This document shows, piece by piece, positions 1,154-18,796 of a stretch of 64,000 nucleotides of DNA. The position numbers and the translations under genes were made by a program. Within the stretch, counting starts at the first letter, position 1. Each line of letters opens with the position of its first letter. The stretch covers positions 4,278,001-4,342,000 of the forward strand of contig JAPYXD010000686.1 of the NCBI GenBank assembly GCA_030998225.1, in the 5' to 3' direction. Source of the DNA: Diplolepis rosae. Lineage: Eukaryota > Arthropoda > Insecta > Hymenoptera > Diplolepididae. Under the pieces are notes generated by a model. It was not told the DNA's origin. It saw only the letters and a program-made list of their open reading frames with translations, and ran no database searches.

Positions 1154-1915
1154 TGTTACGTCACAAGTACGTAAATACTTACTTTGATCGAAGATTCCTC
1201 GTTTTACGTTAGGATCGAATGATCCTCTCTTAGGGATGAGGATAAGTCAATGAAAAGTACACAATGATTAGTAAAGTAATACAAATTGAATTTATTTAAA
1301 TTAACACTGATATAAACAAGGTTAAAATTTTACAATGATTCAAACAATGGCACAGGGAATAGGTAAAGAATAGAGAGAATTTTCGGTACCTTTGTTGAGT
1401 TGTGAATAGTCCCTTTTTTATGAATGATCCTCACAGGTGTGAGGGAGAGAGAAAGATTATTCCACTGGTGCGACGAAGACAGCAATAGGTATCCCACTGG
1501 TGTGAGGAAGACAGAAACAAATATCCCACTGGTGTGAGGAGGACAAGAATAGTTATTTCACTCTACACTGACTCTAAGATCCTTTCAAAGATTGAAAGTA
1601 CAATCAGAGAATTTACGACACGTTTCTTCGGAAAACTGAACTAAACACGTATCTCACGCTGTGAATCCTTTTAAGATTTTAGAAATTTCCCGCACTTAAT
1701 TTTGCTCACAAGACTAGTTTTCCCTTGGCGGCGTGTCCTTTTTATATTATATTTTTTGGTGACGTCACGCGTTGCGCAGTCTCCCGCTGCGTGTGACGTA
1801 GTTATACCTCTCTTTTCAATAGGTGGTTTTCTCTCTCTTTTAGTAATTTCCCCAGATTTCTCTCTAGACCTAGCCTATGCCTATAGTACATTCTAATGCG
1901 TCGCGGGACGTGACA
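1154..1915 (-). repeat. 3' LTR (left copy)
   Basis: 762 bp, 760 identical to 18035-18796. Because the genes are on the minus strand, this is the 3' LTR; the polypurine tract abuts it at 1916. On the minus strand it begins TGTCACG and ends GTAACA. It carries a TATA-like TATAAAAAGG, a TGACGTCA palindrome (1760-1767), AATAAA (complement of 1291-1296) as a possible poly(A) signal, and a 32-bp tandem repeat. The short open frame 1702-1896 on the plus strand is antisense and present in both LTRs; it is not called as a gene. Confidence 0.95.
1430..1557. repeat. 32-bp tandem repeat inside the LTR
   Basis: The motif ccactggtgtgaggaagac recurs with a 32-bp period (starts near 1462, 1494, 1526), with a more diverged fourth copy near 1430. 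The same array is in the other LTR at about 18311-18438. Repeated elements in an LTR often bind transcription factors; no factor is recognised here. Confidence 0.8.
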
Positions 1916-1925
1916 CCTCCCCCCC
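1916..1925 (-). other. Polypurine tract (plus-strand primer)
   Basis: On the minus strand this reads GGGGGGGAGG and directly abuts the first base (TGT) of the 3' LTR. That is the position and composition of the RNase H-resistant purine primer used for second-strand DNA synthesis. It confirms the minus-strand orientation. Confidence 0.85.
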
Positions 1926-2344
1926 TAGTTCGAGCGCGGGGGTGAAGCATCCGCGATCGAATCTTCGGAAGAAGAATACATTCGTTAATGTTTTTGAAGA
2001 TACATTGAATTTCTATTTCTGACGTAATAACCGACATTCATTTCGGGGTCTCTTTTACAATTTGTATTTTTTGCATTTGACTATTTGATTCCAATATCGA
2101 TTTTTTTTTTTTTTTTTTTTTTTTTTGATGTCATAAAAATTTATATTATCTAAATATTATAATTTTTTTTGTTATAAATAATTACATAGCTTTTTGAAAT
2201 AGTATGAACTTAACATAAGGTTACATATGATTTTTTCTTATATAACTAAATACATCAATAATTATTATTTCATATTCGTAAATTATAAATATCATGTAAT
2301 ATAATAATATATAAAACTGTAACGTAATTTCATAATGTAGATTT
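1926..2344 (-). other. Non-coding 3' region with internal A26 run
   Basis: No open frame of note. Reading the minus strand from the end of the dsRBD gene: about 218 bp of very A+T-rich sequence, a variant poly(A) hexamer AATATA about 21 nt before an uninterrupted A26 (2101-2126), then about 175 bp up to the polypurine tract. Confidence 0.7.
2101..2126 (-). repeat. Internal poly(A) tract (A26 on the coding strand)
   Basis: 26 consecutive T on the plus strand, lying downstream of the dsRBD ORF and upstream of the polypurine tract. It could be a simple homopolymer or the scar of a captured polyadenylated mRNA. Confidence 0.9.
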
Positions 2345-2791
2345 TTAAGAATTATTTTTATATTTTCTATTACGTAAAGGATTGCGGCAGTTATGAGCTA
2401 AATGCCCTCTTTGAAAACACCTTTCACAAGAGTTGGTCCATTTTTGTAAGGTTTCTTTACTGATTTCATCAGTTATTTTGAAAATTCTCGTTTCTGGGAT
2501 TAAGCTTTTTTCTTTCATTTCTTCTAAAAATACATATCTTGTGGAAAGCATTTCCAAGAGTTTAGATGCTGCATTTTGCTTTGCAGACTTTTTTTGGGCT
2601 GGTTCCCCAATACAAGAGAAAGTTATTTTATTTTTAAAGATTTCGCAAGTTGCTTGGAATGGTGGCAGTTCTTGGTGTTTTCCAAGCGATTTTACAATAT
2701 ATGAAGGTTCGGAGAAATCATACTCAATGCTTATCTCGTTTAAAACTTGTACAGCAGTGCCTTTCGATAGGTCTCTTGTCTGCAAGGCCAT
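2345..2791 (-). CDS. dsRNA-binding domain plus CCHC zinc knuckle protein (148 aa)
   Basis: Residues about 13-82 fit a double-stranded-RNA-binding domain: an N-terminal helix, EPSYIVKSLGKHQ, a three-strand region and the C-terminal helix GEPAQKKSAKQNAASKLLEM, which has the KKxAK phosphate-contact pattern. Residues 122-135 are a CCHC knuckle (C122-x2-C125-x4-H130-x4-C135), followed by a short basic tail. By family knowledge such a protein would bind dsRNA or siRNA without sequence preference. In a retroelement the inferred role is shielding dsRNA from Dicer, or RNA packaging. The ATG is 10 nt after a good 3' splice site (TTCTTTTGCAG), suggesting a spliced mRNA. It shares its architecture with the 194-aa ORF at 6313-6897. 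dsRBD assignment confident; function inferred. Confidence 0.85.
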   Translation of the reverse strand: MALQTRDLSKGTAVQVLNEISIEYDFSEPSYIVKSLGKHQELPPFQATCEIFKNKITFSCIGEPAQKKSAKQNAASKLLEMLSTRYVFLEEMKEKSLIPETRIFKITDEISKETLQKWTNSCERCFQRGHLAHNCRNPLRNRKYKNNS

Positions 2792-3154
2792 TGTTTTTGA
2801 TCTGCAAAAGAATTACCTGTTTGAGTTGATGATTGAATTTATTGAAATTCTAAAGTTAGTTAGTTTTTTTTTTGTAATAATTTTGTGTTTGTTGATATAT
2901 TCACTTTCCGCGTTTCCTAACTCAAAGAGATATTTCATGCAGAGAAAACAGTGGTCCGTTTTTTAGAATATTTCAATTTATTAAGGTTTGTCGTTACATT
3001 ATAGCGGTTAAGGAAGAAGTAGTGGTGTATATGAAATATGATTTTAAACAACGAATAAAAATTAAAAGGGAAAATTTTTTAACAAAAGTTACTAATAGAT
3101 ATTGTTTATATTTAGAAAAAAGAATAATAAAAAATATGTTTTGATTTATTATTT
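2792..3154 (-). other. Non-coding spacer with 3' splice site
   Basis: A+T-rich spacer between the second CxxC gene and the terminal dsRBD gene. The only recognised signal is the minus-strand acceptor TTCTTTTGCAG ending at 2802, just ahead of the dsRBD start codon. A plus-strand open frame across this stretch is antisense to the dsRBD gene and is not supported. Confidence 0.6.
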
Positions 3155-3499
3155 TTATTCGTCGTTGTTATAAATAATAGTCGATGCTTCGGAATCGACG
3201 TCGTTATACAGTGCTTCTTGTTGGTATAAATGAATTACACGTTCGGCACAAGTTACACATAAATCTGCTCTTTGCCGCATGTAAAAAATTTGTATATTGC
3301 AAATGGAGCAGTCGAGGCTAGATAGTTTTAATGTACAATATAAGTCTTTAGTAACTATGTGGTCTATTCGGACGGGTAATGTTACTTCGGTTTCGAAAAA
3401 GCTGAGTTCTGTCATCCAACAATCCTCGCAAACAAGTTTTTTTCGAGAACATTCATGTAAAAATTCTCGACCAGGGTTGTGCAGCAGTATTCTGACCAT
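3155..3499 (-). CDS. Small cysteine-rich zinc-binding-like protein (114 aa), copy 2
   Basis: No family recognised by name. Three CxxC pairs are visible: C24-C27 (CEDC), C64-C67 (CSIC) and C81-C84 (CVTC), plus C17 and C55. The spacing CxxC-x13-CxxC of the last two pairs is identical in the 135-aa ORF at 3725-4132, and the segments around the pairs align, so the two are paralogues. Paired CxxC suggests a treble-clef or RING-like zinc fold; no transmembrane or signal segment is seen. The C-terminus is acidic. The ATG lies 20 nt after a possible acceptor (GTTCAG ending at 3520). Location among accessory genes suggests a regulatory or host-interaction role, which is inference only. Confidence 0.65.
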   Translation of the reverse strand: MVRILLHNPGREFLHECSRKKLVCEDCWMTELSFFETEVTLPVRIDHIVTKDLYCTLKLSSLDCSICNIQIFYMRQRADLCVTCAERVIHLYQQEALYNDVDSEASTIIYNNDE

Positions 3500-3724
3500 A
3501 ATTGATTTTCAAAATACGGCTGAACATCCTGCTCGCTTGCTCGAACTTCTTCTGCTTCGATTGTTTCGATTTCTTGGGGCAGCATTTTTCTGTTGGGGAA
3601 ATTTACAATATTTAAGGAATTTGAAATATTTGTAAAATTTACAATTTTTTAGTATTAAGGATTTTATTAAATTTAACAAAATTTTTCATGCGTGATTACA
3701 TGCGTGGAAGGTAGATATATATAA

Positions 3725-4132
3725 TCATGCAGGGGTATTTTCTACTAGAACTTCGTTTCCTTGACTAATTTCGAATTTATAATTTAAATATTGTTCGATA
3801 CATTCTCTACAATCAGCTGCTCTTTTTCGCGGAGTAATTAATAGTTCTTGACAACCGTAACAATTCATATATATGCATTCCAATTTACAAATGGAATGCC
3901 ATGATGTAAAAAATTCACAGTTATTTTGAGTTTCCTGATCTAATTTCTCGAAACAGAATTGGCAATATCTTTTTGTGGTTTGGTGATTATAATATAAAAA
4001 CAATGTTGAGGGTTCTAATTCGAAGCAATAACTCTGTAATAAGTGCGCGTATGCTATCGGATAGTCTTGCGGACATACACCGTCTACTGGTCCAAGATGG
4101 TTAACAATAGGTTCACTTGGAGTTGGTATCAT
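3725..4132 (-). CDS. Small cysteine-rich zinc-binding-like protein (135 aa), copy 1
   Basis: Paralogue of the 114-aa ORF just downstream. CxxC pairs at C57-C60 (CQFC), C91-C94 (CYGC) and C108-C111 (CREC); the last two are separated by 13 residues exactly as in the paralogue. Extra cysteines at 72, 82 and 86. The N-terminal 50 residues have no counterpart in the shorter copy. No signal peptide or membrane helix. ATG is 3 nt after AACAATTTGTAG, a plausible 3' splice site. Likely a zinc-stabilised small protein arising by duplication inside the element. The family is unknown to me; E3-like or RNA-binding activity are only possibilities. Confidence 0.65.
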   Translation of the reverse strand: MIPTPSEPIVNHLGPVDGVCPQDYPIAYAHLLQSYCFELEPSTLFLYYNHQTTKRYCQFCFEKLDQETQNNCEFFTSWHSICKLECIYMNCYGCQELLITPRKRAADCRECIEQYLNYKFEISQGNEVLVENTPA

Positions 4133-4470: not shown

Positions 4471-6135
4471 TCAAAAGTTAAACGTCAAGTCGGTCAGTAA
4501 AGGTTTTGTCACTGAGCTTAAAGGAGTTTTTTGTATAAGTTCTATACGTGTTGGCGTTTTGTTTATTTTTTTAGATATTTTTTGAATTTTCAATAGTAAT
4601 AATCCTAAAATTGTAATCATAAGTAAAGTGATAAAGATTAGTGCTAATGTTAATTTATGTGCACTAGAAATAAAAATTGATGGAATGATTTTTTGAATGT
4701 TTGCATATTTTGTAAGGATAAAGACATGGTTTTCGAAGATTGATAATGGCATGTCTTCTTTTTGCTGAAGAAGAAGTAATACCTTTTTTAGTAAGTGAGG
4801 CTCTTGAATGGAAATATTATATAAAAATGGTGAAATTATAGCAAGGGAAGTAGTTGATTTGCTGACTGGAATTGAATTATCCATTATATTCAAATGGTTT
4901 TGAAGATGGTAATATGGAGTTGATGAATCTAGATTGCAACCTGATTTTGTTTGCAAAATTCCTATTCCTTGGAGTGTGATTATGGTCTTAGAGTTTTTTC
5001 GACATGATAAGAAAATTTGTCGGGGGAAAATTGTTGAGTATAGCCATCCATGATGAAATTGCAATGGTGTTAGAAAGGGATATTCGCTAAAACTGATGAA
5101 TATTTTACACTTGTATGGTTGATAATTTAGAAACATTGATGTTTCACAAATAGGATTGTTATCGATGTTAGATATAGATCTTGGTGGGTGACAAAATGTT
5201 TGGAATCCATTTTGATAACATGCATTGAGGAAATTTTCATTTGTTATAAAGTATGATTGGTTATTTGAAGAAATAGCGAGATAAGAATTTTGAGGTTTTA
5301 TGTAAATAGAGGAAATTACGTCAGTATTAAAATCGAGATGTATTGGAATTGGATGTGGTTTAAATAATTGAAATTCTTCAGCAGATGGGATTGGTATAGT
5401 CATAATAAAAATCAAGTACTTATCGAATAAGAAGTATTGTATTTTAGAAAATGGAAGGACCATAGAAAAAAGGGATGTTGAAAGGTGTGGGTCTTCTTTG
5501 TTGGATTTGAAGTCTAAGAAGGTATCAGGAAGTAGCATAGGGTGCCATAAATTAGTTGCGGCATGAGTAATAGCTTCTGTAAGTTGGTCAAGGAGTAAAA
5601 GAAAAGATTGAGAAATTTCATGCAGGTCTTTAAGCCAATTTGCTGCTAATATTCGATATAGGTGAATATTTGGATCTTTTTGAGAATTATGCCATTTTTT
5701 GTAGGTCATAATGTTGTCAAGTTTTGAAGAAAGATTTGTAACTTTTTGGAAAAATGGATTAGGAAGTAGAAATAAATTTTCTTTGGGCCAGTAAAGGGAG
5801 GTTTCATTTCTCATTCTTAATTCTAAAAGTACTTTTTGTATCTGTTGCAAGAATGGATCATTAGTGTTAGAAATATTCGTGATATTACGAGCTTGTCTAG
5901 ATATAAATGATATTTCTTCAAGAAAATAGTTGATGCGTTGTTCTATAAAATCAAGTTGTGTCTGATGATCGTATAAATTACAATTATTGGCAATATTTGA
6001 GAGTATGCAATATTCATATAATTTATGTGAGAAATCTATTATTTTGTATTTAAGTACGTCTGGCTGAAAGATATCGATATAAGATATAAAATGATATTTT
6101 TCAGAAAAAAGACGAACTTTTTGAAATTGGTTCAA
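4471..6135 (-). CDS. env: F-type (errantivirus/baculovirus F-like) envelope glycoprotein, main frame (554 aa)
   Basis: Pattern of the insect retrovirus Env / baculovirus F fusion family (class I-like): an N-terminal helical ectodomain with many Asn glycosylation sites, then a cysteine-bearing core with SYLAISSNNQSYFIT near residue 285 and cysteines at about 306, 315, 330, 343, 378 and 400. A single transmembrane helix (about 495-516) and a 38-residue cytoplasmic tail follow. Predicted role: type I membrane protein for budding and fusion. The frame starts at a TTG without a signal peptide. An ATG with a good signal peptide lies upstream at 6253 in another frame (see 6101-6253), and the two frames meet near an A5 run, so the N-terminus is broken here or mis-sequenced. 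It is the second envelope in the element. Confidence 0.8.
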   Translation of the reverse strand: MNQFQKVRLFSEKYHFISYIDIFQPDVLKYKIIDFSHKLYEYCILSNIANNCNLYDHQTQLDFIEQRINYFLEEISFISRQARNITNISNTNDPFLQQIQKVLLELRMRNETSLYWPKENLFLLPNPFFQKVTNLSSKLDNIMTYKKWHNSQKDPNIHLYRILAANWLKDLHEISQSFLLLLDQLTEAITHAATNLWHPMLLPDTFLDFKSNKEDPHLSTSLFSMVLPFSKIQYFLFDKYLIFIMTIPIPSAEEFQLFKPHPIPIHLDFNTDVISSIYIKPQNSYLAISSNNQSYFITNENFLNACYQNGFQTFCHPPRSISNIDNNPICETSMFLNYQPYKCKIFISFSEYPFLTPLQFHHGWLYSTIFPRQIFLSCRKNSKTIITLQGIGILQTKSGCNLDSSTPYYHLQNHLNIMDNSIPVSKSTTSLAIISPFLYNISIQEPHLLKKVLLLLQQKEDMPLSIFENHVFILTKYANIQKIIPSIFISSAHKLTLALIFITLLMITILGLLLLKIQKISKKINKTPTRIELIQKTPLSSVTKPLLTDLTFNF

Positions 6136-6312: not shown

Positions 6313-6897
6313 TTACATATGGTTGGATTTAGGTCTAGAAGTTTTTTGGAGAAAAGGGGAAAAAAGTCTACTAAATGTTGAGGAGTTTCTTGGTGGAACT
6401 GGAGGGGGAAATTGGGTTGATTTGTCTACTTTAAAAATATTTCGTCTACGGCACTCTTTTGTAGCATGCATTTGAGTGTTACAAAATCTACAGGAATTTT
6501 CCCAAGGTATTAATTTTGGTCTTGGATCGGTTTGAATACTTTGATTTTTGGTTTTTTGCCTTTTTTTATCATCATTATTATAAAATTTTTCGTCGCAGAG
6601 ATCGTATGATCTTATTAGTAGCAATAATAATTTTAAAGCTGCTCTATTTTCTGCTAATTCACTAGTAGGGCCGGCTTGTATAACGAAATGTTCATTTATA
6701 TTAATTTGTGCGAGAAAAAATGAGTTTGTTTTCGAATTCGGATCAGGATAGACTGTATATTGCGGTAACGGCAGTCCATATTTTATCGTGAAGTTTCTTA
6801 AAATTTCTACATGATTTAAAAATCCCATGGAGTCTGTTCTGTATTTCTTTTTTGGGTAACTTGGTACGTGTGTAGGCTCGTCGTAGTAATGCTCCAT
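6313..6897 (-). CDS. dsRNA-binding domain plus CCHC zinc knuckle protein (194 aa)
   Basis: Residues about 27-94 match a dsRBD fold: helix NHVEILRNFTIKYGLPLPQY, three strands, then a helix AENRAALKLLLLL. The usual KKxAK triad before the last helix is weakened (SELAENRAA), so RNA affinity may be lower than in the 148-aa protein. A CCHC knuckle follows at C136-x2-C139-x4-H144-x4-C149, then a proline-rich FPPPVPPR stretch resembling an SH3 or late-domain-like ligand. Same order of domains as the ORF at 2345-2791. The ATG is 13 nt after CGATTCAG, a possible acceptor, and 37 nt after the stop of the tandem-dsRBD ORF. Inferred role: dsRNA sequestration or RNA chaperone/packaging. Confidence 0.8.
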   Translation of the reverse strand: MEHYYDEPTHVPSYPKKKYRTDSMGFLNHVEILRNFTIKYGLPLPQYTVYPDPNSKTNSFFLAQININEHFVIQAGPTSELAENRAALKLLLLLIRSYDLCDEKFYNNDDKKRQKTKNQSIQTDPRPKLIPWENSCRFCNTQMHATKECRRRNIFKVDKSTQFPPPVPPRNSSTFSRLFSPFLQKTSRPKSNHM

Positions 6898-6934: not shown

Positions 6935-7672
6935 TTAGAATTTATTGTACTGGTTGGGAGGTCTATATCCGCATTTAAAACATTTTTTAAAGCTTTTCGT
7001 AGAGAAAGATGATGCAGTATGATTATTATTTGTTTTCATTTTATATGAATTTGTATTTTTATCACGATTGTTATTTGAAGTAATAGGTTTTGTTATTTGG
7101 CTACTCGTTGAAGGTTTTGGATCGTTTATAGATGATTCTTGAATTGTTACATGCAAATGTTCTAGTGAGTTTATCAAACGTAGTTCACATTTCTCGTCTT
7201 TATGCGAAAGAGAATTAATAACTTTTATGGCAGCAAAATCCTTAGCTGTTTTTATTGAGTTTGCTATTCCTATTTGTTTAATGTTATTAATGAAACAAAT
7301 TGCTATGTATGTTGAGTCTTTTGATGAGGTTTTTATTCGTAATACTGTATATTTTGGATACTCAAATTTATTTTCAGTGCAAATTTCGTTTAATTTTATG
7401 CAATTTTTACTAATAGAGTTTGGTTGGACGTTTTGATTTGTTTCCTTTGATTCATTAATTAAGGCATTATATAAATTTTGTGCTACCTTTTGCTTTACAT
7501 TTTCTTTATCTTTGCCACTATTCATTATTATATAATTTTTATATTGTAAATTAACGTGAAATAGACATTCATTATTATTGGTTTGTTCAATGAGTATCTC
7601 ATAAATCAGGGGTGGATCTCCTCTTTGTTGAATAATTTTGTTTAGTAAGGTTGTAAAAGGAACATGCGACAT
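6935..7672 (-). CDS. Tandem dsRNA-binding domain protein (245 aa)
   Basis: Two dsRBD-like modules. The first (about 5-72) has helix FTTLLNKIIQQRG, Y24EILIEQ strand and a C-terminal helix VKQKVAQNLYNAL. The second (about 91-156) has KLNEICTENKFEYPKYTV and a C-terminal helix TAKDFAAIKVINSL. A Ser/Asn-rich linker leads to a C-terminal CxxC (C231-C234) that looks like the first half of a zinc knuckle; His and the third Cys are absent. Tandem dsRBDs are the layout of siRNA-binding cofactors such as the R2D2/Loquacious/TRBP group and of several viral silencing suppressors, so an RNAi-interfering role is a reasonable inference. ATG is 1 nt after CATCTTCAG, which abuts the stop of the upstream glycoprotein. 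Confidence 0.8.
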   Translation of the reverse strand: MSHVPFTTLLNKIIQQRGDPPLIYEILIEQTNNNECLFHVNLQYKNYIIMNSGKDKENVKQKVAQNLYNALINESKETNQNVQPNSISKNCIKLNEICTENKFEYPKYTVLRIKTSSKDSTYIAICFINNIKQIGIANSIKTAKDFAAIKVINSLSHKDEKCELRLINSLEHLHVTIQESSINDPKPSTSSQITKPITSNNNRDKNTNSYKMKTNNNHTASSFSTKSFKKCFKCGYRPPNQYNKF

Positions 7673-7682
7673 TCTGAAGATG

Positions 7683-9782
7683 TTAGATTTGGAAAGAGTA
7701 GTGGGTTCTACTAAGTTCTTCTTTTAATTCAGAGTGAGGATAAAGAGTTGTGTTTGTATTATTGTGATCTTTACCTGAAGTAGTGTTTGCGTAATACGAT
7801 GGACTTTTAGGTGCCTCTTTCGAGCTTTGTGGTGCTGAAGCTGTTAGCAGTTCTTGATGACTCTCAGCAGGAGGTCCAGAAGGTCGATGGGTACCTAAGT
7901 GTAATAAGAGGTTAGTGACCGAATCCCAGAAGGCGCCTAGTAGATGGAGAGACCATCCAAATAATCTGTGTAGCGCATATCCATGAATAATGGTATCAGC
8001 TATCAATTTAATCCCTCTAATTATTATTATTAATCCAATTAGGCCTGCACTAGTAGTTCCAAAACTTGTAAAAATTGTCCAAAATCTACCCCATGCGGAT
8101 TCAGCAATTTTATCAATTACATCTTCATTAAATAAATTCGTTAATGATATTCCTTGATTAATAGTTGGATGTCCTGTTATTTCTCTAGCTAAAGAATTTA
8201 GAATCATTGGTTTTTCTGCTGGAAACATAATATGATCTCGCAGTTTATCAAGATCAGATTGAGAATAAATGCCACTTGTTGCTAAGGATGAAGGATTTGT
8301 GTATTTCCAGGTTGCTTTTGTGAGAGGTTTAACTATAGTTGGTGCTATGGATTCGACAGGATTTGGCAGTAATTTGTACCAGGTTTCTCCAAAAAGGTAC
8401 ATTGGTGGAAGGAAAGAATTGCAATTTGTTTGGATACCTGATTTTGTTAATATATGAGTTTGTGGAGAAAGGAAAAAGGATTGATTTCCTCTAAATATTG
8501 GTAGTTGTAGATAACATTCTTCAGTTTTGCGATATTTTACTTCAACCGGTATACATTTTACGATATGTACTACTTCTCCTGCAATTACTGACATATATCC
8601 TGGGCCTTTCATTAAATGATATGCAAATTCGTCTGGTGATTGGGTTGCTAAGGTTAATGTATTTCTAAAAACTTGCTGTTCAAGTATGCATCGTTGAGTA
8701 AGAACATCGTGATAAAGTCTATTTACTTCAGTGCGTATGTGTCGTTCTACATATATAAATTTAGAATTGACGTATGTGAAAATGTCCATATTTTGAACTT
8801 CTAAATGTTTATTTTCTAAAAATGAATTCCCAGGTCTGGTTTCAAAAATTAATAATTTTGGATGTTCGGTTTGTATTAAAACGTAACTGCAAACTGGTTT
8901 TCTTGTTTTTTCAGCTAGTACGAAAGTTATATCCTCAGTCGTTAAAGAATAAAAGGTTTCAGAATTGTCTGTCGTGTTGTCATAGGTCTTATTTGCTGGT
9001 CCTTCATAAATAATTTCATATTTGTTAAAATTACATACGTCATTAGGTAATGTATCCCAGAATGTTTGTCCATATTCTACGTCAGTACAGAATGTGTCTG
9101 AAAGTGTGCATATTATTCCAGATCCTAATTGAATTTTATTTGAATTTAAATGAATAGTCGCGTAATGTTCTTGTAAAGTTATTTTGAATATTGCTTGGAC
9201 TACGACATTATTCCATGTTCCGTATGGGTCAGAAAATTGTGTACCAGTACAGTCTCCATTAGGTGTTACAGAACCTTCTAAAGTAACACTGTGGAATGAA
9301 GTTTCATTTACTTTTAACTTTGATATCTGAAGAGTAGGGGTTACTAAAAATGTTCCTATTGTGTGCATTTGATTACATTGATCTCGTGTAACATCATGTA
9401 TATATTCACTGTGGCCATTTGCTACTATGGAACTGTGAGAATGCATACCACAATGAGAGATGGCGCGTCGAATTTCTATTTTGCATTGTATTACTTTTGT
9501 ATTTGAAAATCCAGTTAATTGTAAAAGTTGTATATAAGTTCTTTCAACATGTACTTGAGATCGAGGTAGATCACATTCTCCTACCTCTAGTAAAGATAAT
9601 GTCGTAATATTTGATTGATTTGAACCGCAATCGAATCCTATGATGGCGTAGACTGTTGTTATATAGTTGAAGTTGCAAGTGAGCAGTGCCAAAAAGGAAG
9701 CCTCGTAATCCCATCTCTGGAAAAAGGAGGTTCCAATTAGCAGCTTGCTTTGTAATATAAGAATAGGAAAATGTTTTATCAT
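7683..9782 (-). CDS. Chuvirus-like envelope glycoprotein G (699 aa)
   Basis: Large type I glycoprotein unlike gypsy Env. Features I recognise from chuvirus-type G (mononegavirus-like, class III fusion group): a mature N-terminus with IIGFDCG (47-53), C70, the CGMHSHSS motif (111-118), multiple conserved cysteines, then a C-terminal hydrophobic block (about 577-600 and 608-628) with IIHGYALHRLFGWSLHLLG, and a Ser/Pro-rich tail. Signal segment SFLALLTCNFNYITTVYA is at 29-46. Start is uncertain: ATG at 9782 opens the frame, but a strong acceptor (CCTCCTTTTTCCAG ending at 9717) sits 2 nt before another ATG at 9714 in a different register, with a T5 run between. Chuvirus glycoprotein capture is known for BEL/Pao elements of mosquitoes. 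Here it sits in a Ty3/gypsy element alongside a second envelope. Confidence 0.75.
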   Translation of the reverse strand: MIKHFPILILQSKLLIGTSFFQRWDYEASFLALLTCNFNYITTVYAIIGFDCGSNQSNITTLSLLEVGECDLPRSQVHVERTYIQLLQLTGFSNTKVIQCKIEIRRAISHCGMHSHSSIVANGHSEYIHDVTRDQCNQMHTIGTFLVTPTLQISKLKVNETSFHSVTLEGSVTPNGDCTGTQFSDPYGTWNNVVVQAIFKITLQEHYATIHLNSNKIQLGSGIICTLSDTFCTDVEYGQTFWDTLPNDVCNFNKYEIIYEGPANKTYDNTTDNSETFYSLTTEDITFVLAEKTRKPVCSYVLIQTEHPKLLIFETRPGNSFLENKHLEVQNMDIFTYVNSKFIYVERHIRTEVNRLYHDVLTQRCILEQQVFRNTLTLATQSPDEFAYHLMKGPGYMSVIAGEVVHIVKCIPVEVKYRKTEECYLQLPIFRGNQSFFLSPQTHILTKSGIQTNCNSFLPPMYLFGETWYKLLPNPVESIAPTIVKPLTKATWKYTNPSSLATSGIYSQSDLDKLRDHIMFPAEKPMILNSLAREITGHPTINQGISLTNLFNEDVIDKIAESAWGRFWTIFTSFGTTSAGLIGLIIIIRGIKLIADTIIHGYALHRLFGWSLHLLGAFWDSVTNLLLHLGTHRPSGPPAESHQELLTASAPQSSKEAPKSPSYYANTTSGKDHNNTNTTLYPHSELKEELSRTHYSFQI

Positions 9783-9834: not shown

Positions 9835-10116
9835 CTAGTTCATTATATCCAACATGTCGGCTATGACAATGTGATTTGATAGCCGTAAACTGAGAATTAA
9901 ATTTTTGTATGCGTCCGGTCCTCTTGTTTTGATTGTTGAAAAAATGTCTTTTATTATTTCTGGATTGTTTAGATTTCTGTTCCATGTGGGGATATTGCAG
10001 TCGTCTTTCTTAAAAATTCCAGTTTGAATTAAGTATGGCCAGAGAGCTACCATGTCGATAAAACAGGGAACTATTTCAATGAGATCATCTATGCGTTTGC
10101 GATGAATTTGTTCCAT
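9835..10116 (-). CDS. CARD-only protein resembling an insect initiator-caspase prodomain (93 aa)
   Basis: Essentially one death-fold domain. Helix-rich order: HRKRIDDLIEIVPCFIDMV, then LWPYL (25-29), GIFKKDDCNIP, NPEIIKDIFSTIKTRGPDAY (51-70) and LILSLRLSNH (73-82). The LWPYL, IKTRGP and SLR.SNH positions are the pattern I know from CARDs of Dronc/caspase-9-like proteins. There is no caspase catalytic domain (no QACRG- or SHG-type motif) in any frame next to it. By analogy with CARD-only decoys and iridovirus vCARD proteins, it would bind apoptosome or caspase CARDs and damp apoptosis; activation is the alternative. The ATG is 5 nt after ATTATTCCAG, a possible splice acceptor. Lies between integrase and the G gene. 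Confidence 0.78.
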   Translation of the reverse strand: MEQIHRKRIDDLIEIVPCFIDMVALWPYLIQTGIFKKDDCNIPTWNRNLNNPEIIKDIFSTIKTRGPDAYKNLILSLRLSNHIVIADMLDIMN

Positions 10117-10365: not shown

Positions 10366-11940
10366 TTACTTTTGTACTTGCACATGTGAGCGTTTTAGTC
10401 TATTAATGTGGACAACAGTAGGTTTGCCTTTATAGCTTATTTTGACATTCCCTTTTCCTAACACTTCCAATATTTCATAAGGCCCTGTATAATGGCTGTC
10501 AAGTTTTTTAATTTTTCCTCCTTTTAATAAAAACACGTAATCTCCAATTTTTACTTCTAAAGGACTTATTTTTTTGTCATAATATAATTTCGATTTTTCT
10601 TTTGCTGAAATAAGATTTTCTCTTGCTTGTGTTCGCATTTCATGTAGTTGTGTTACGAAATTAATTAAATAATCGTCATATGTTTGTAATTTTTCTTGTT
10701 GTGATAAAGGTTCACTGGAAGGTTCACGAGCTAGTTTACCAAAAACCAATTCATAGGGTGTGCATTTTGTGCCTTCATGTACACTAGTATTATATGAGAA
10801 CATTGCTAGTTCAAGCCAATCATCCCATTCTGAATTTTTTGCAACAAATTGTTTGAGATATTCTCCTAAAACATGATGTGAACGTTCTAATGACCCGTTT
10901 GATTGAGGGTGAAATGCTGTGGTACGAAATTGTTTAATTCTAAAACGTTTTGCCAATCTTTTTAATAAATTACTTAAAAAATCTCTGCCTTGGTCAGTAA
11001 GTACTCCTTTCGGTGATCCAAATATGCAAATAAATTTTTTCACGAAAGCATCTGCTATCGTACTAGCTTGGTGATTAGGAAGAGGTATTGCTAAAGAATA
11101 TTTGGTAAAATTGTCTTGTATCGTTAGAATATATAAGTTACCAGATTTTGTTTCAGGTAGTGGACCAACAATGTCCATTGATATTTTTTCAAAAGCAGTA
11201 GTGGGTGTGTCAGTGATTACCATAGGGTTTTTTGTTTTGACTCTGATTAATTTTTTCAGTTGACATTGTAAACAGCCTTGAATATATTTTTGAATGTCTA
11301 CTTTCATATTTTCCCAAAAAAATTTTTGGCGAATTCGGCTATAAGTTTTTGTAACGCCTTTATGGCCTCCTAATGCTGAGGAGTGAGCTTCTTCAATTAA
11401 ATGAGTTCGTTGTTCCTTTGTTGGATATTGCGTTATTCCATTGCAAACTATAATTTTTGTAGTTGAATTTGAAAAAATTGAATCGAAAATTGATTTCACT
11501 TCTTCCCAAGGTATATGATTAATTCTGGAAGTTTTTGATATACTAATAGATCGTAATTTAAATTTTTGAGATAATTCATGTAATGAATGAATTGATAATT
11601 TTATATTATTTAAAGTTTCAGATAAATTATCTTTAGTTTCTTCTTCAATTGGAAGTGCAAAATGGTAGTAGTTTCCTTTTTTAATCTCTTTTGCTATCCC
11701 CTTTTGTAAATTTTTAAATTTTGGTAAAGTTTCACGTTTTTCTAAAATTTTTGATCCGTTGTCGCGAGGAGTTCCATTTGTTGTAACAAAATATGCATAA
11801 TTATCTTTTCGCATAGTTAATTGATCGCGACATTCAACTAAATTTTTCTTTGTTATAATTTTTTCTGTTTGAGAGTTTATAGGAGGAGGTTCTGGGGGTG
11901 GACGATTATAATTATCATGATCTTTATCGATTTTTTTCAC
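10366..11940 (-). CDS. pol: Integrase portion of Pol (524 aa frame)
   Basis: Zinc-binding HHCC: H186, H193, C223, C226. Catalytic DDE core: D256 (SMDIVGP), D316 (LTDQGRD), E352 (SLERSH), giving the expected 35-residue D-to-E spacing. The C-terminal region has KIGDYVFLLKGG and GPYEILEVLGKGN, the GPY/F module of Ty3/gypsy integrases. The N-terminal 180 residues are linker, with NRPPPEPPP near 12-20. The frame opens at a GTG after a TAA and has no proper start, so it must be made as part of Pol. The register differs from the protease-RT frame, with the break at an A7 run at 11931-11937. Function: cDNA integration. All catalytic residues are intact. Confidence 0.93.
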   Translation of the reverse strand: MKKIDKDHDNYNRPPPEPPPINSQTEKIITKKNLVECRDQLTMRKDNYAYFVTTNGTPRDNGSKILEKRETLPKFKNLQKGIAKEIKKGNYYHFALPIEEETKDNLSETLNNIKLSIHSLHELSQKFKLRSISISKTSRINHIPWEEVKSIFDSIFSNSTTKIIVCNGITQYPTKEQRTHLIEEAHSSALGGHKGVTKTYSRIRQKFFWENMKVDIQKYIQGCLQCQLKKLIRVKTKNPMVITDTPTTAFEKISMDIVGPLPETKSGNLYILTIQDNFTKYSLAIPLPNHQASTIADAFVKKFICIFGSPKGVLTDQGRDFLSNLLKRLAKRFRIKQFRTTAFHPQSNGSLERSHHVLGEYLKQFVAKNSEWDDWLELAMFSYNTSVHEGTKCTPYELVFGKLAREPSSEPLSQQEKLQTYDDYLINFVTQLHEMRTQARENLISAKEKSKLYYDKKISPLEVKIGDYVFLLKGGKIKKLDSHYTGPYEILEVLGKGNVKISYKGKPTVVHINRLKRSHVQVQK

Positions 11941-12409
11941 AATTTATTTGAGATCTTCGGTTTAATCTCAAATTTTCTTCAAAATAAGGCTCTTCAAATT
12001 CTTCTTCCAATTTTTCTTCTTGGTTTTCTTCAAACTTCTCATCAAAATTTTCCTCAAGATTGTCTTCAAAATTTTCTTCAAAATTCTGTTCGAAATTCTT
12101 TTCAAAATCGTCTTCAAGATCATCTTCAAAATTCTCTTCCCAATTTTCTTCATAATTTTCTCCATCATTTCCTTCGTGTGAGGTTTCAATGTCGTTGATT
12201 TCATCTTCTGAGGTTGAAAAATAATTCTCACTTTCTTCACTTTCAAATTCATTAATATTTTTTGGCTTCTTGGCATTCTTCTTCTTTTTATTTTTGGCTT
12301 GAGTTTGTTTCAAATAATCTAAATAATCAGGATCAGAGTCGGAATCTGATTCTACTTTTGTTCGGCTTCCCTTTTGCACATTTATTTCTGGTAATTCGTT
12401 TTCAAACAT
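11924..12409 (-). CDS. Acidic repeat segment of the Pol linker (161 aa frame)
   Basis: Lies between RNase H and integrase. The first 75 residues are mixed, with SDSDSDPDYLDYL and a lysine-rich NKKKKNAKKPKN patch. The rest is a highly acidic repeat of short units such as ENFED, DLEDD and EQNFE, encoded by imperfect 15-bp DNA repeats (tcttcaaaattctcttc type). The first ATG is at 12409, but upstream context suggests this is an internal piece of Pol whose register differs from its neighbours. Acidic, probably disordered; it could be a tether or spacer. It is not a recognised domain, and its low complexity makes homology searches unreliable. Confidence 0.6.
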   Translation of the reverse strand: MFENELPEINVQKGSRTKVESDSDSDPDYLDYLKQTQAKNKKKKNAKKPKNINEFESEESENYFSTSEDEINDIETSHEGNDGENYEENWEENFEDDLEDDFEKNFEQNFEENFEDNLEENFDEKFEENQEEKLEEEFEEPYFEENLRLNRRSQINCEKNR

Positions 12410-12902: not shown

Positions 12903-15140
12903 TTAGAGTTTTCTTGTTTTTTTTCTTGTAAAAGTTTTCTTTGAAAACATTTTTTCTTGGGAAGTCATAAAAGTATCATTGGCGTCAACTTGTAAATATC
13001 TTGATTTCTCTTTGTTATCATCAATAGGGTTTCTTGAGAGAGCGTCTGCATTTACATTCATTTTTCCTGCTTTGTAAATTACATCAAAATCATATTCTGC
13101 GAGTTTCAGTCTCCAACGTGAAACTCGTGAACAAGGGTCTTTAGAATTTTGAAACCAAACTAGAGGTTTGTGATCAGTCACTAAAGTAAATTTTCTCCCA
13201 TACAAATAAGGACGAAAATGAGTTACACAAAATATTATAGCAAGAGCTTCTTTCTCATATGTATCATATTTTTTCTCAGTATCACTTAGACTACGTGAAG
13301 CATATGCTATTGGCTTATCTTTACCTATTTTACCTTGTGATAAAATACCTCCTATTGCAAATCCTGAGGCATCTGTTGTGAGTATAAAAGGTTGAGAAAA
13401 ATCAGGTCGTTGTAAAAGTGGTTCTTCACATAATTTTGCTTTTAAAATTTCGAAAGCTGCTTGTTGTTTTTCTGTCCAATTAAAAGGTGTATCTTTTTTC
13501 AGAAGTTGATTTAAAGGACTTGCAATTTTTGAAAATCCATCAATAAATCGTCTATAATATCCTGCTAAGCCTAAAAATTGTTTAACATTTTTCTGTGTTT
13601 TTGGGACTGGAAAGTTTTTTACAGCTATTATCTTTTTTGGATCTGGACGTACTCCATTTTTATCAATTATATGACCTAAATATCCTACTTCAGGTCGTAA
13701 AAATTCGCATTTGTCTGGTTGTAAGTGAAGATTTGCTTTTCTAAGTCTTTCTGCTAAATTGTTAAATTTAATTTCGTGCTCTTCTAGAGTATTTGCATAT
13801 ATAACTATGTCATCGAGATATACAAAAAGTTCCGTTCCTATTAATCCAGTTAATGTTAAATCCATTAATCTTTGAAATGTGGCAGGTGCAGTTTTTAAAC
13901 CGAAAGGCATTCTATCGAATTCGTAATGACCGTGAGGTGTAGAAAACGCGGTTTTATGCGAGTCTTTTGGATCCATTTTTATATGGTGAAAACCGGTAGC
14001 TAAATCAAACACTGAAAAATATTTTGCTGATCCTAGAGAATCAAGTATATCGTTTATATTAGGTAAAGGATACGAATCGCCAATTGTTTTTTCATTTAAT
14101 TTACGAAAATCAAGAACCATTCTCCATTTTATTTTTCCTTGAGAATCAGGTTTTTTAGGAACTATCCACACTGGAGTGTTATATGGTGATTGTGAGGGCT
14201 TGATTATTTTATTTTTTAATAATTCATCGACTTGTCTTGTAATTTCTTCCTTGTGAACTGGGGGAAATCTATATTGTCTTGAAAAATTAGGAGCGTCATC
14301 TACAGTTGGAATTGAATGTTGTAATACATTAGTAGCTTCAAGTGGTTCTCCTGGGATTTGAAATCTGTCTGCATTATTTTTAATTAATTTTTCTACATGT
14401 TCATATTCATCTTGATTTAAATGGTCTAATCGAAGAAGTTTTTTAATACATTCTACTCTGTCTTCGTCTGTTACATTATAAAATTTGCATGAGTTAATTA
14501 GAGAATTGTCAGTTTTTAAAAAGTTATTTAATATTTTACTTGATAAATCTTCGTTATTTGTTTGTTTGAAATTAATTAAATTTTCAATTTGTTTATAGCA
14601 TTCTTGTTCTTCAAAGTCTTCTAAATTAACTAATGGGACGGATAATGTAATTGGGATTTCATTTGTGTTTGCAAATTTTAAATAAGCTTTTCCTCTGTGA
14701 TTTTTTACAACTGCGTCACCTACGTAGACGCCATCTTGGATATGTAATCGAGGTACATACCCTTCACTCTTTTCTGTATTTTTTATATTAACATAAAATG
14801 TTGTAACTGTTCGAGCTGGAATAGTAAATGTATTGGTAGATTTAAAAGGGTAACAGTGGTTCTCAATTTCTAAGCATTTTGAAGTATAGTTTATATTCAC
14901 TCTATTATCTTGAAAAAATTCTGATCCCAATACTCCATCTTCTTCTACTGGGACTTCATTCGGAATAATGTTAAATATTGTTGGGTAACCAAAAATGTTT
15001 ATTTTTACTTGTCCTAATGTGTAAAGTGGTAAATCATTAATTCCTGTAAGTTTTAATACGTTTTGGCTATTTATTGGTACTTCAGGGTTGAGAACCTTTT
15101 GTTTAATTAAATTTCGAGCAGCACCAGTATCAATCATCAT
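12903..15140 (-). CDS. pol: Pol: protease, reverse transcriptase, RNase H (745 aa from first ATG)
   Basis: Aspartic protease motif IDTGA at the start (D4-T5-G6) with GVLGSEFF near 69-76. RT fingers and palm span about 300-500, with catalytic D379 (FDLATGFH) and YLDD at 441-444. RNase H catalytic residues D590 (TTDASG), E631 (YEKEALAI), D656 (VTDHKP) and D699 (NADALSR) are all present. This is a normal Ty3/gypsy order. The frame is open upstream to 15329, overlapping gag by 70 nt in the -1 register, so the product is probably a Gag-Pol fusion and the ATG at 15140 is internal to the protease. It stops at 12903 after an A8 run, before the linker and integrase. Confidence 0.95.
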   Translation of the reverse strand: MMIDTGAARNLIKQKVLNPEVPINSQNVLKLTGINDLPLYTLGQVKINIFGYPTIFNIIPNEVPVEEDGVLGSEFFQDNRVNINYTSKCLEIENHCYPFKSTNTFTIPARTVTTFYVNIKNTEKSEGYVPRLHIQDGVYVGDAVVKNHRGKAYLKFANTNEIPITLSVPLVNLEDFEEQECYKQIENLINFKQTNNEDLSSKILNNFLKTDNSLINSCKFYNVTDEDRVECIKKLLRLDHLNQDEYEHVEKLIKNNADRFQIPGEPLEATNVLQHSIPTVDDAPNFSRQYRFPPVHKEEITRQVDELLKNKIIKPSQSPYNTPVWIVPKKPDSQGKIKWRMVLDFRKLNEKTIGDSYPLPNINDILDSLGSAKYFSVFDLATGFHHIKMDPKDSHKTAFSTPHGHYEFDRMPFGLKTAPATFQRLMDLTLTGLIGTELFVYLDDIVIYANTLEEHEIKFNNLAERLRKANLHLQPDKCEFLRPEVGYLGHIIDKNGVRPDPKKIIAVKNFPVPKTQKNVKQFLGLAGYYRRFIDGFSKIASPLNQLLKKDTPFNWTEKQQAAFEILKAKLCEEPLLQRPDFSQPFILTTDASGFAIGGILSQGKIGKDKPIAYASRSLSDTEKKYDTYEKEALAIIFCVTHFRPYLYGRKFTLVTDHKPLVWFQNSKDPCSRVSRWRLKLAEYDFDVIYKAGKMNVNADALSRNPIDDNKEKSRYLQVDANDTFMTSQEKMFSKKTFTRKKTRKL

Positions 15141-15259: not shown

Positions 15260-15329
15260 TTATGCTTTCCTCAGTGCACCCGTGCTGGGGAGAGCTTTGG
15301 AGTTTTCCTGATGAGCTGTTTGTGATTGG
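15260..15329 (-). other. gag-pol overlap, -1 frameshift region
   Basis: The -1 (pol) frame opens after a TAG at 15330-15332 and gag ends at 15260. Within the overlap G-GAA-AAC (15308-15302) is in the right phase for -1 slippage, with an A-site AAC that re-pairs to AAA; the P-site re-pairing is weaker. Errantiviruses commonly make Pol by -1 frameshift. The exact site is inferred. Confidence 0.6.
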
Positions 15330-16441
15330 CTATTTGGTCGTATCTTGCAGTCTCGTACTAAATGACCGGGTTTTTTACAATAATTGCAAACTACTTCAGT
15401 ATAATTTGAATTTTGTTGATTATTATTATTTTGTAAAAACCTATATTCATATGGTTTATTTCGATTTTGAGACTGTCCTAAGTTAAAGTTTTGATACTGT
15501 CCTGGATTCCATTGTCTATTATTATTATTAACATTATTGTTATTATTGTAAAAATTTCTAGGAAAATTGTTATTATTGTTGTGTCTTTGTTGTAAAACAT
15601 TATTATTATTGTTTTTATAATTATTATTTCTATTTTGCAAATTATTATTGTTATTGTTATTAAAATTATGATTTTTATTTCTTAAAAAATTGTTATTCGA
15701 AAAATTATTGTAATTGTTTCTTGCAAAATTATTATTATTATTACTTCTTTGACCATTGAAATTACTATATCCTTGTTGGTTAGGACGCAACAAAAAATTT
15801 TTTTGTTTATTATTAAAAACTGCATCTTGAGCTTTACTTAAATGAAAACATTTTTCAGTTTGTCGACCTGGTTTTTTACAAATTAAACAAATAGTTTTGT
15901 TTTCAAGTGCTACGTTAAATCGGGTTGTTTTGTTATTTTTATTATTAGATGATTCGTCACTTTTTGAATAATCCATATTTTTATTTCTTCGTAGTGCGGA
16001 ATTTGCAGCTAATCTTCGTTCTATATCAATACTGTCGCTAATAACTTCTTTAAAAGTATCCTTTTCTTCAACACGAATTTCTAACTCAGGACGCAAACCG
16101 CGTATAAAACATTGAATTACGTCTTTTTCAAGGTTTACTTTAAAATTATTATCTACCTGACCATTATTATTGAGCCTGTGAGCATCTTCGATTTTGTCGG
16201 CAATTTCTTTTATCCTAGCAGCATAGGAAAGTACATTTTCTCTTTCCCACATAAATGTATTACCTAATTCTCCCTGTAACTGGTACACGCTTTTCGCAGG
16301 GGCATATACTCTTTTCAATTTTTCTATCAATTCTTCTATTGTTGTATAAGTAGAACCAAAAATGCATTTTCTGGCTTCTCCAGTTAATTTACCTCTTAAT
16401 AGCCTTGCGAGGTTTTCTTGAGCTGCAGGTGTCGGTAGCAT
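15260..16441 (-). CDS. gag: Gag, C-terminal part: capsid and nucleocapsid (393 aa)
   Basis: Residues 1-150 fit the Ty3/gypsy retrotransposon gag (capsid) family, with LARLLRGKLTGEARK and VIQCFIRGLRPELE. Two zinc knuckles follow: the first is C185-x2-C188-x4-R193-x4-C198 with Arg where His is expected; the second is canonical, C352-x2-C355-x4-H360-x4-C365. Between them is a strikingly asparagine-rich stretch (about 225-345), encoded largely by AAT/AAC. It is in the same frame as the upstream Gag piece, separated by the UAG at 16451-16453 and three further codons, so the ATG at 16441 is probably not a natural start. Role: particle assembly and RNA packaging. Pol overlaps its 3' end. Confidence 0.9.
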   Translation of the reverse strand: MLPTPAAQENLARLLRGKLTGEARKCIFGSTYTTIEELIEKLKRVYAPAKSVYQLQGELGNTFMWERENVLSYAARIKEIADKIEDAHRLNNNGQVDNNFKVNLEKDVIQCFIRGLRPELEIRVEEKDTFKEVISDSIDIERRLAANSALRRNKNMDYSKSDESSNNKNNKTTRFNVALENKTICLICKKPGRQTEKCFHLSKAQDAVFNNKQKNFLLRPNQQGYSNFNGQRSNNNNNFARNNYNNFSNNNFLRNKNHNFNNNNNNNLQNRNNNYKNNNNNVLQQRHNNNNNFPRNFYNNNNNVNNNNRQWNPGQYQNFNLGQSQNRNKPYEYRFLQNNNNQQNSNYTEVVCNYCKKPGHLVRDCKIRPNSQSQTAHQENSKALPSTGALRKA

Positions 16442-16450: not shown

Positions 16451-17125
16451 CTACATGCAACCCTCAATAAAATGTGACAATGGGAGGTTACTTCCGTCAA
16501 ACAATGGGACCACCTCTAGCGCGTCGCGTAAGGATACCTGCTGGCTGTTGGGTATGACCACGGCCATCTCTTCGTTATTTACTCTTACGGGATTATCCTG
16601 ATTTATGGCTTCTGTGTCGCTTTTGTCGTCGTCGCTATCGTTGTTACTAATTATAGATTCGCGTGCCAATGAGGTTTCCAATCTTTCTTTCAAAGTTTTA
16701 TTATCTACTGTTATTACTGTTGAGCTTAGCAAATTGAATTCGTCAAAATAAGATAATTCATTCGTTAGAGTTTGATCTTGATTACTGGATCCTGTTACAA
16801 TGCTTAAATCTGGACAGAAACTTGAATGAAACCCGCTAGTTTTTTCTGAATTTTCACGTGATATATTTTGATTATTAATTAGAGTCTTGTCTAAACTTGA
16901 ATCATCTAACTTAAGAGTGTTATCTAATTCTTGTTCTGTAGGGATTGGATCAGGGATATTTTGGCATTTATTATCAGTTGAATATTCTCTATTTCTAATT
17001 GGTTTTATTTTTAAATTACCCTTTTGATTCAAATCTACTATTTTTGCAAGCTGACTATCGTGTTTAGCTTGACTACGTGTTATAACTTTCGGGGTAGATT
17101 CTAAAGGGATATTTGGTTTTGACAT
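16451..17125 (-). CDS. gag: Gag, N-terminal part ending at an in-frame UAG (224 aa)
   Basis: Starts ATG at 17125 after the long leader; first gene of the element. Mostly polar, Ser/Asn/Asp-rich and probably disordered (matrix-like). It ends in SLRDALEVVPLFDGSNLPLSHFIEGC, where VPLFDG.N.PLS.F is the usual entry to the Ty3/gypsy capsid domain. A TAG (16453-16451) then interrupts the capsid fold itself. The following codons are in the same frame and continue as the 393-aa Gag part. Most simply this is a nonsense substitution in this copy. Leaky UAG readthrough is possible but would be an odd place, inside a folded domain. Confidence 0.88.
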   Translation of the reverse strand: MSKPNIPLESTPKVITRSQAKHDSQLAKIVDLNQKGNLKIKPIRNREYSTDNKCQNIPDPIPTEQELDNTLKLDDSSLDKTLINNQNISRENSEKTSGFHSSFCPDLSIVTGSSNQDQTLTNELSYFDEFNLLSSTVITVDNKTLKERLETSLARESIISNNDSDDDKSDTEAINQDNPVRVNNEEMAVVIPNSQQVSLRDALEVVPLFDGSNLPLSHFIEGCM

Positions 17126-17452: not shown

Positions 17453-17462
17453 TCTTTACCAA
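17453..17462 (-). promoter_or_regulatory. Candidate 5' splice site in the leader
   Basis: Minus strand GCAGTTG|GTAAAG with the intron starting at 17459. Fair match to the U1 consensus (G at -1, GTAA) but lacks G at +5. It could supply the common leader for spliced downstream messages. Confidence 0.35.
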
Positions 17463-17771: not shown

Positions 17772-17842
17772 TTTTCAAACTTATTTTATTTTTAAACAAT
17801 TTATATAAATTATAAAATTTCAAAGAAATGATCTGATTATTA

Positions 17843-17882
17843 AATCATTAAGGTTAGCCTCAAGGTCAAATCCCTTTGTGAT
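17843..17882. repeat. Leader direct repeat, copy B (contains TCAAGGTCA)
   Basis: Second copy, 111 bp from copy A; TCAAGGTCA at 17860-17868. Same orientation and same core. Confidence 0.8.
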
Positions 17883-18002
17883 CTAACAAATCTATTTTAT
17901 TGAAATTTTAAGTTTTAAAGTTGAAATAATATTTCATAATCATTTATTTATTTATTTATTTATTATTAAGAACCAATGTGTTCAATTTCAATTGACTTGT
18001 GT

Positions 18003-18020
18003 TTCCCGGCCGATGCACCA
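18003..18020 (-). other. Primer-binding site for tRNA-Gly(GCC)
   Basis: On the minus strand TGGTGCATCGGCCGGGAA is an 18-nt perfect complement to the 3' end (with CCA) of the standard insect tRNA-Gly(GCC). It lies 14 nt from the end of the 5' LTR, a wider gap than the 0-5 nt of many Ty3/gypsy elements. It fixes the direction of the element. Confidence 0.9.
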
Positions 18021-18034
18021 GAAAAAAGGAAGTA

Positions 18035-18796
18035 TGTTACGTCACAAGTACGTAAATACTTACTTTGATCGAAGATTCCTCGTTTTAAGTTAGGATCGAA
18101 TGATCCTCTCTTAGGGATGAGGATAAGTCAATGAAAAGTACACAATGATTAGTAAAGTAATACAAATTGAATTTATTTAAATTAACACTGATATAAACAA
18201 GGTTAAAATTTTACAATGATTCAAACAATGGCACAGGGAATAGGTAAAGAATAGAGAGAATTTTCGGTACCTTTGTTGAGTTGTGAATAGTCCCTTTTTT
18301 ATGAATGATCCTCACAGGTGTGAGGGAGAGAGAAAGATTCTTCCACTGGTGCGACGAAGACAGCAATAGGTATCCCACTGGTGTGAGGAAGACAGAAACA
18401 AATATCCCACTGGTGTGAGGAGGACAAGAATAGTTATTTCACTCTACACTGACTCTAAGATCCTTTCAAAGATTGAAAGTACAATCAGAGAATTTACGAC
18501 ACGTTTCTTCGGAAAACTGAACTAAACACGTATCTCACGCTGTGAATCCTTTTAAGATTTTAGAAATTTCCCGCACTTAATTTTGCTCACAAGACTAGTT
18601 TTCCCTTGGCGGCGTGTCCTTTTTATATTATATTTTTTGGTGACGTCACGCGTTGCGCAGTCTCCCGCTGCGTGTGACGTAGTTATACCTCTCTTTTCAA
18701 TAGGTGGTTTTCTCTCTCTTTTAGTAATTTCCCCAGATTTCTCTCTAGACCTAGCCTATGCCTATAGTACATTCTAATGCGTCGCGGGACGTGACA
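18035..18796 (-). repeat. 5' LTR (right copy), promoter-bearing
   Basis: 762 bp, the transcription-driving LTR because the element is on the minus strand. Differs from the left LTR at 18088 and 18340 only. Same internal features: TATA-like box, TGACGTCA, 32-bp repeats (about 18311-18438) and AATAAA. Confidence 0.95.
18618..18648 (-). promoter_or_regulatory. U3 core promoter: TATA box and CRE palindrome
   Basis: Minus strand TATAAAAAGG (18627-18618) lies about 14 bp downstream of the perfect palindrome TGACGTCA (18641-18648), the binding site of CREB/ATF-type bZIP factors. Further TGACGT/ACGTCA half-sites occur nearby (about 18674) and at the LTR end. Confidence 0.6.

Follow-up and report, generated by a model that had tools for sequence, protein, structure and literature searches.

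We analysed a 64,000-nucleotide stretch of the genome of the gall wasp Diplolepis rosae (assembly GCA_030998225.1, contig JAPYXD010000686.1, positions 4,278,001 to 4,342,000), hereafter called the window, whose positions are used for all coordinates below. The window contains a complete Ty3/gypsy-type provirus (1154-18796) on the minus strand, with eight open reading frames (ORFs) between integrase and the 3' long terminal repeat (LTR), all of them on the coding strand as described in an initial annotation made from the sequence. The hallmarks of a metavirus, namely LTRs, a primer binding site, a polypurine tract and a short target-site duplication, are all present. The 5' LTR (18035..18796) and the 3' LTR (1154..1915) are 762 bp each, have TG...CA ends on the minus strand, and mismatch at exactly two positions, 1207 and 1459. 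The duplicated target site, ATTG, is found on the 5' side (18797..18800) and on the 3' side (1150..1153) of the element. The primer binding site (18004..18020), 14 nt from the 5' LTR, is approximately complementary to the 3' end of what we take to be tRNA-Gly, and the polypurine tract AGGGGGGGAGG (1916..1926) adjoins the 3' LTR.

The gag gene is read in two parts that share a frame: the first (16451..17125) is closed by an in-frame stop, and the second (15260..16441) carries a CCHC knuckle detected by Pfam. The following pol segment (12903..15140) comprises a protease-like region, presumably marked by its DTGA motif, a reverse transcriptase (RT) and an RNase H. The best PDB match of the RT is Ty3 Gag-Pol (E = 3.9e-98), with further matches to an entry named 'Enzymatic polyprotein' (1.3e-65) and to retroviral Pr125Pol (1.8e-38). 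An acidic low-complexity repeat in another frame (11924..12409) lies between RNase H and the integrase (10366..11940), which has an H2C2 zinc finger and an rve core by Pfam and occupies a third frame. The domain order RT-RNase H-integrase and the Ty3-type RT are those of Metaviridae (Ty3/gypsy).

Envelope and accessory genes

Two of the eight genes encode unrelated envelopes, as had been proposed, one chuvirus-like and the other baculovirus F-like according to Pfam. Envelope 1 (GP, 7683..9782) is a chuvirus-type fusion glycoprotein that matches the Monjiviricetes_fusion family profile over its full length (1.2e-246), and envelope 2 (ENV2, 4471..6135) matches Baculo_F (3.3e-19 in the window copy and 5.9e-23 in another copy). 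Both carry a hydrophobic stretch close to the C terminus. Longer predicted frames exist in other copies: a GP frame of 774 codons, overlapping the CARD frame, in five of the 13 retrieved copies that span GP, and an ENV2 frame of 618 codons in four of the 13 that span ENV2. ENV2 starts with TTG in the window, and we considered that it might be an exon without a start of its own; this idea was dropped because the longer frame of other copies has its own ATG. A protein search with GP returned 455 relatives, the best at 62-67% identity; of the 120 that were listed, those with a name belong to ants, to a sawfly, to parasitoid wasps and to Hymenopteran chu-related virus OKIAV146 (50%). A tree built from a selection of 37 of these rows places GP with its two closest proteins, P0001 and P0002, and OKIAV146 elsewhere on a long branch, its position unresolved.

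Three genes encode putative proteins with double-stranded RNA-binding domains (dsRBDs). dsR245 (6935..7672) has two stretches that match the Pfam family dsrm, one of them weakly, and dsR194 (6313..6897) and dsR148 (2345..2791) each combine a dsRBD with a C-terminal CCHC knuckle. The dsrm E-values are 3.8e-10, 6.1e-4 and 1.1e-7, respectively. The earlier assignment of all three to this class therefore stands at the Pfam cut-off for dsR245 and dsR148, whereas dsR194 falls below it (20.8 versus 23) and yet resembles the other two: the three proteins are similar to each other beyond chance in a comparison of nine sequences, the set within which all E-values for relatedness among the small genes were computed. 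A protein search with dsR245 returned 36 relatives, all ENA records, the best at 99%. Two further genes encode CxxC proteins, CX135 (3725..4132), with three CxxC pairs, and CX114 (3155..3499), which align weakly with each other over the three pairs (best E 3e-4) and are probably related. Because the three dsRBD genes are related and so are the two CxxC genes, the eight genes, judged by sequence similarity, probably represent five gene lineages, and both sets may have arisen by duplication inside the element. The remaining gene (9835..10116) encodes a CARD-like protein of 93 amino acids, assigned from a Pfam match below cut-off and from a predicted structure that shows the six helices of a death fold. 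When this model was compared with a library of viral structures, no significant match to a named CARD came up: the top rows of that kind belonged to Lymphocystis disease virus 3 (E 1.4) and to Cod iridovirus (E 1.9). A PADLOC scan of six window proteins gave no match.

The window copy is defective. Its gag contains the one in-frame stop, protease-RT-RNase H and integrase are in different frames, and GP, ENV2 and CX114 have damaged 5' ends, judged by the longer frames of other copies. Of the 82 integrase matches scored genome-wide, 14 fall within a single open frame of 1646-1652 codons that is stop-free within the match.

Copy family and second lineage

Searches of the wasp's own genome, whose match counts are lower bounds, gave at least 40 matches to the LTR, including the two in the window, at least 82 to integrase, and at least 150 to each of CX135 and the CARD-like ORF. 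For 98 of the 150 listed CX135 matches a CARD-like ORF is present upstream on the same strand, within 7 kb in 84 cases and farther away in 14. Each of the 12 copies examined contains the full set of eight genes (one has an internal deletion), and many copies are 99-100% identical. In two other LTR pairs we counted no mismatch in 762 positions each; the target-site duplication is perfect in one (AAAC/AAAC) and one base off in the other (CACT/CATT). Since the three LTR pairs have 0, 0 and 2 mismatches in 762 positions, activity of the element was recent, in agreement with the initial annotation. A further LTR at locus L003 (G000:C379; 1501-2262) resembles a solo LTR: TTTC flanks it on either side, and the 10 bases that adjoin it contain nothing from the interior of the element.

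A second lineage was recognized at locus G000:C400, where the gene order is identical to that of the window element; it was read from one copy, whose frames are broken too. Wherever it could be computed, the ratio of nonsynonymous to synonymous divergence (dN/dS) between the window element and this lineage is 0.15-0.37. Synonymous divergence (dS) itself is uneven: integrase, CARD and GP lie at 0.15-0.18, dsR245 at 0.26 and dsR194 at 0.60, and ENV2, CX135, CX114 and dsR148 range from 0.88 to 2.35, the highest values being near saturation. Because dS climbs from the 5' to the 3' genes, the profile is best explained by exchange between lineages; the simplest account is that recombination left the two lineages with the 5' part in common and with 3' modules that diverged long ago.

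The large size of the element, its two unrelated envelopes and this mosaic divergence profile might instead point to a nested or chimeric insertion peculiar to the locus. The initial annotation had asked whether other copies share the gene order, and they do: CARD and CX135 are co-linear at 98 loci, the eight genes recur in every one of the 12 copies and in the same order in the second lineage, and the outer target duplications of the window copy are intact. As a locus-specific event, nesting or chimerism is thus refuted, and we give it practically no weight. The second lineage also bears on the two envelopes. Two unrelated fusion proteins look redundant, and envelope genes are known to be able to act in receptor interference, so that one envelope could be the working protein and the other a decoy or a block to superinfection. 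We regard this as unlikely, as both envelopes are conserved between the lineages (dN/dS 0.26 and 0.17), and both have the C-terminal hydrophobic stretch and a fusion-family match.

Selection and an antisense gene

To count changes in the eight genes, copies were compared mainly with the window copy. Variants present in at least three copies were assumed to have been inherited through a source lineage, and single-copy variants were treated as mostly post-insertion. The sample consisted of the 12 copies from high-identity matches, parts of two copies with long CARD-CX135 spacing, and 20 pieces taken from the bottom of the CX135 list and 14 from the bottom of the CARD list, each list holding the best 150 matches. 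Copies covering less than 70% of a gene were dropped, as was L021, which is the same copy as L019, wherever L019 was present (and throughout in the pooled counts). This left, including the window, 28 rows for CARD, 22 for GP, 22 for dsR245, 19 for dsR194, 14 for ENV2, 33 for CX135, 28 for CX114 and 26 for dsR148.

The ratio of nonsynonymous to synonymous changes (N/S) among shared variants was 0.15 for CARD, 0.03 for GP, 0.18 for dsR245, 0.22 for dsR194, 0.28 for ENV2, 0.20 for CX135, 0.10 for CX114 and 0.35 for dsR148, which is below neutrality in all eight genes (binomial P ≤ 0.047, uncorrected for eight tests); for single-copy variants it was 0.40-0.77. Pooled over genes, the shared N/S was 0.19 in the true frame compared with 1.38 and 2.57 in the wrong frames, and variants at codon positions 1, 2 and 3 numbered 51, 33 and 130 when shared and 308, 273 and 311 when single. 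Fisher tests of shared versus single variants were significant for GP, CX135, CX114 and dsR148, for which the counts are strong; they are small for the other four genes, with few shared changes in CARD (11), dsR245 (10), dsR194 (9) and ENV2 (10). The selection on the accessory ORFs that had been suggested for examination is thus purifying in all eight among copies, and also between lineages wherever dN/dS could be computed. It is conceivable that these ORFs are passengers that are open only through the youth of the copies: as many copies are 99-100% identical, open frames alone are weak proof of function, and several frames are in fact broken in the window copy. We consider this very improbable, since constraint on the shared variants is confined to the true frame, a neutral ratio of about 1 is not seen for them, and the inter-lineage dN/dS stays low up to a dS of about 2.4, again near saturation at its highest. 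The constraint in the true frame indicates that the eight genes were most likely functional until insertion.

Some copies hold an additional segment of about 1.72 kb between ENV2 and CX135, which codes on the opposite strand and is absent here; the corresponding junction in the window is at 4474..4478. The antisense gene has three predicted GT-AG introns, placed by eye, at positions common to both lineages, and its exons match a gene at the same site in the second lineage with 49-59% amino-acid identity. Its dN/dS is 0.15-0.37 for three of the four pieces, dS being saturated in the fourth; pieces 1 and 2 form one ORF in the second lineage and two frames in L019. We hand-picked 53 exon matches from the 117 listed, mostly with at least 74% identity: 26 of them had CX135 or CARD on the opposite strand, as far away as expected, and none had either gene on the same strand within 9 kb. 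The gene is held by 12 of the 14 long-spaced CARD-CX135 pairs and by none of the 84 short-spaced ones. Introns that are antisense to the genomic RNA escape splicing from it and can survive retrotransposition. The window copy has probably lost the gene by deletion. A short direct repeat at the ends of the segment led us to consider a young nested transposon, which is less likely; because the second lineage has the gene at the same place, loss in the subfamily of the window fits better.

The antisense protein showed no Pfam family above cut-off (four L019 pieces and three antisense ORFs of L057), no PADLOC match (two ORFs), and a best PDB E-value of 0.26. GP, dsR245, CX135, ENV2 and the antisense ORF, the five queries used, had no relatives in a viral contig collection. 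A second antisense ORF in the second lineage (L057:3485-4039, minus strand) encodes 184 amino acids, is rich in acidic residues and has no Pfam match.

Possible functions and known elements

Taken together, the anatomy, the conserved gene order, the selection and the recent insertion show that the window holds a defective copy of an endogenous retrovirus of Metaviridae that bears envelope genes, is present in many copies and was active recently. That its selected accessory genes counter host defence we consider somewhat more probable than the opposite. The dsRBD proteins would bind double-stranded RNA (dsRNA) of the element, including duplexes from overlapping sense and antisense transcripts, and could keep Dicer-2 and dsRNA sensors from recognizing it. 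The CARD-like protein may disturb assembly of the Dark-Dronc apoptosome, and the two envelopes could serve different cell entries, for example from soma to germline or between individuals. Regulatory roles are probable for the antisense product and the CxxC proteins, which is the weakest part of the assignment. It is tempting to go further and picture an infectious, bidirectional lineage of cynipoid complex retroviruses with two entry envelopes, a dsRBD family shielding antisense dsRNA, an apoptosome-disarming CARD-like protein and recombining modules, although this fuller picture appears doubtful.

Several observations weigh against a counter-defence role. The CARD claim of the initial annotation is upheld by the predicted six-helix fold and not by Pfam, where the match (E 0.018, 15.5 bits) lies below the curated cut-off of 23.9; the best Foldseek E-value is 0.097, four of five models have a pLDDT of 51-68, and no CARD was among the matches of the protein's profile to PDB sequences. 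Small helical bundles can produce chance matches. CX135 gave no usable model (pLDDT 32.7) and no PDB match. Neither an R-x-K/R-R furin motif nor an above-threshold N-terminal hydrophobic stretch was found when one copy of the longer GP frame and one of the longer ENV2 frame were inspected. The Fisher tests were not significant for CARD, dsR245, dsR194 and ENV2, and single-copy variants were also below neutral (P < 0.05) in CARD, GP, dsR245, dsR194 and ENV2. The window copy is itself unable to make all its proteins. Finally, dsRBD proteins have other roles in RNA export, packaging and translation.

This last point leads to a possible, if less likely, alternative in which the dsRBD and CxxC proteins regulate replication and would export, protect or package a long spliced genomic RNA, in the manner of Rev or CERV. 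CERV, an accessory protein of the LTR retrotransposon Cer1, is reported to be required for export of its genomic RNA (PMC10309623). The Gag-like retroviral CCHC knuckle in two of the dsRBD proteins would suit such a role, and the presence of eight genes 3' of pol points to spliced or internal transcripts. An export function, however, would hardly require three dsRBD genes in parallel as well as a CARD-like gene, and dsRBDs are known to bind duplex structure and not sequence. We therefore continue to favour counter-defence.

Endogenous retroviruses of insects are commonly regarded as elements made up of gag, pol and env. The wasp element resembles errantiviruses and other env-bearing Ty3/gypsy elements (gypsy, ZAM, Tirant) in gag-pol order, Ty3-type RT, H2C2 integrase, a baculovirus F-like envelope gene and a 4-bp target-site duplication. 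It differs in that a single env is not its sole extra gene: there are eight under selection, which add a chuvirus-type second envelope, a CARD-like protein, three dsRBD genes and two CxxC genes, and other copies have the antisense gene. Its TG...CA ends and tRNA-Gly-like primer site also differ from the ends and primers typical of errantiviruses, and its membership of that group is unproven. With complex vertebrate retroviruses (lentiviruses, deltaretroviruses and spumaviruses) it shares the presence of several small accessory genes 3' of pol, and its antisense gene recalls the spliced antisense gene HBZ of HTLV-1. It differs from them in its Ty3-type polymerase and two envelopes, and in Pfam scans no accessory gene matched theirs. 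The element is a rare insect counterpart of these viruses. The complex-retrovirus reading of the initial annotation thus holds for an element that is family-wide, but the antisense gene, the relatedness of accessory genes, the defects of the window copy and the mosaic history had been overlooked.

Parts of these features are known from other systems. The Anakin elements of mosquitoes likewise took a chuvirus-type glycoprotein as envelope of an LTR retroelement, but belong to BEL-Pao (PMC7642597; PMC10084718), whereas the wasp element has a Ty3/gypsy backbone, two envelopes and accessory genes. A 2023 survey reported many Gypsy fragments beside chuvirus glycoproteins in Hymenoptera and other orders but no clear capture by Gypsy (PMC10084718), and a 2026 paper describes type III fusion glycoproteins common to mosquito gypsy and BEL elements (PMC13172572). 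The 340R protein of IIV-6, a large DNA virus, is, as here, a viral dsRBD protein in an insect setting; suppression of RNA interference (RNAi) has been shown for 340R (PMC4231766), and the wasp element offers the genes alone. Cer1 makes its extra protein from a spliced mRNA (PMC10309623) and has one accessory protein where the wasp element has several. No description of an element with such a set of accessory genes turned up in the literature searched, though the 2025 survey of metazoan env-bearing elements by Chary and Hayashi may contain one; nor did anything that joins errantiviruses with dsRNA binding or, among the titles listed, any gall wasp paper on such an element. A metavirus with two unrelated envelopes, a CARD-like protein, dsRBD proteins and an antisense gene with introns, all under purifying selection, would amount to retroviral complexity of independent origin outside Retroviridae, and makes it testable whether insect retroelement proteins act against RNAi, dsRNA sensing and apoptosis.

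Outside the element, the 44 kb at window positions 20000-64000 contain no ORF of at least 130 amino acids. Among the named records listed, the COI of the assembly comes nearest to one identified no further than Hymenoptera (83%) and to Parnips, Figites, Trichagalma and Dryocosmus (81-82%), which are cynipoid wasps; another record reaches 91%. Besides the short contig C428, contigs G000:C239 and G000:C385 have near full-length COI matches, which are probably nuclear mitochondrial DNA copies. The insertion target is an array of an approximately 90-bp satellite (window 1-1149 and 18801-21000), of which we counted 37 units in window 1-21000.

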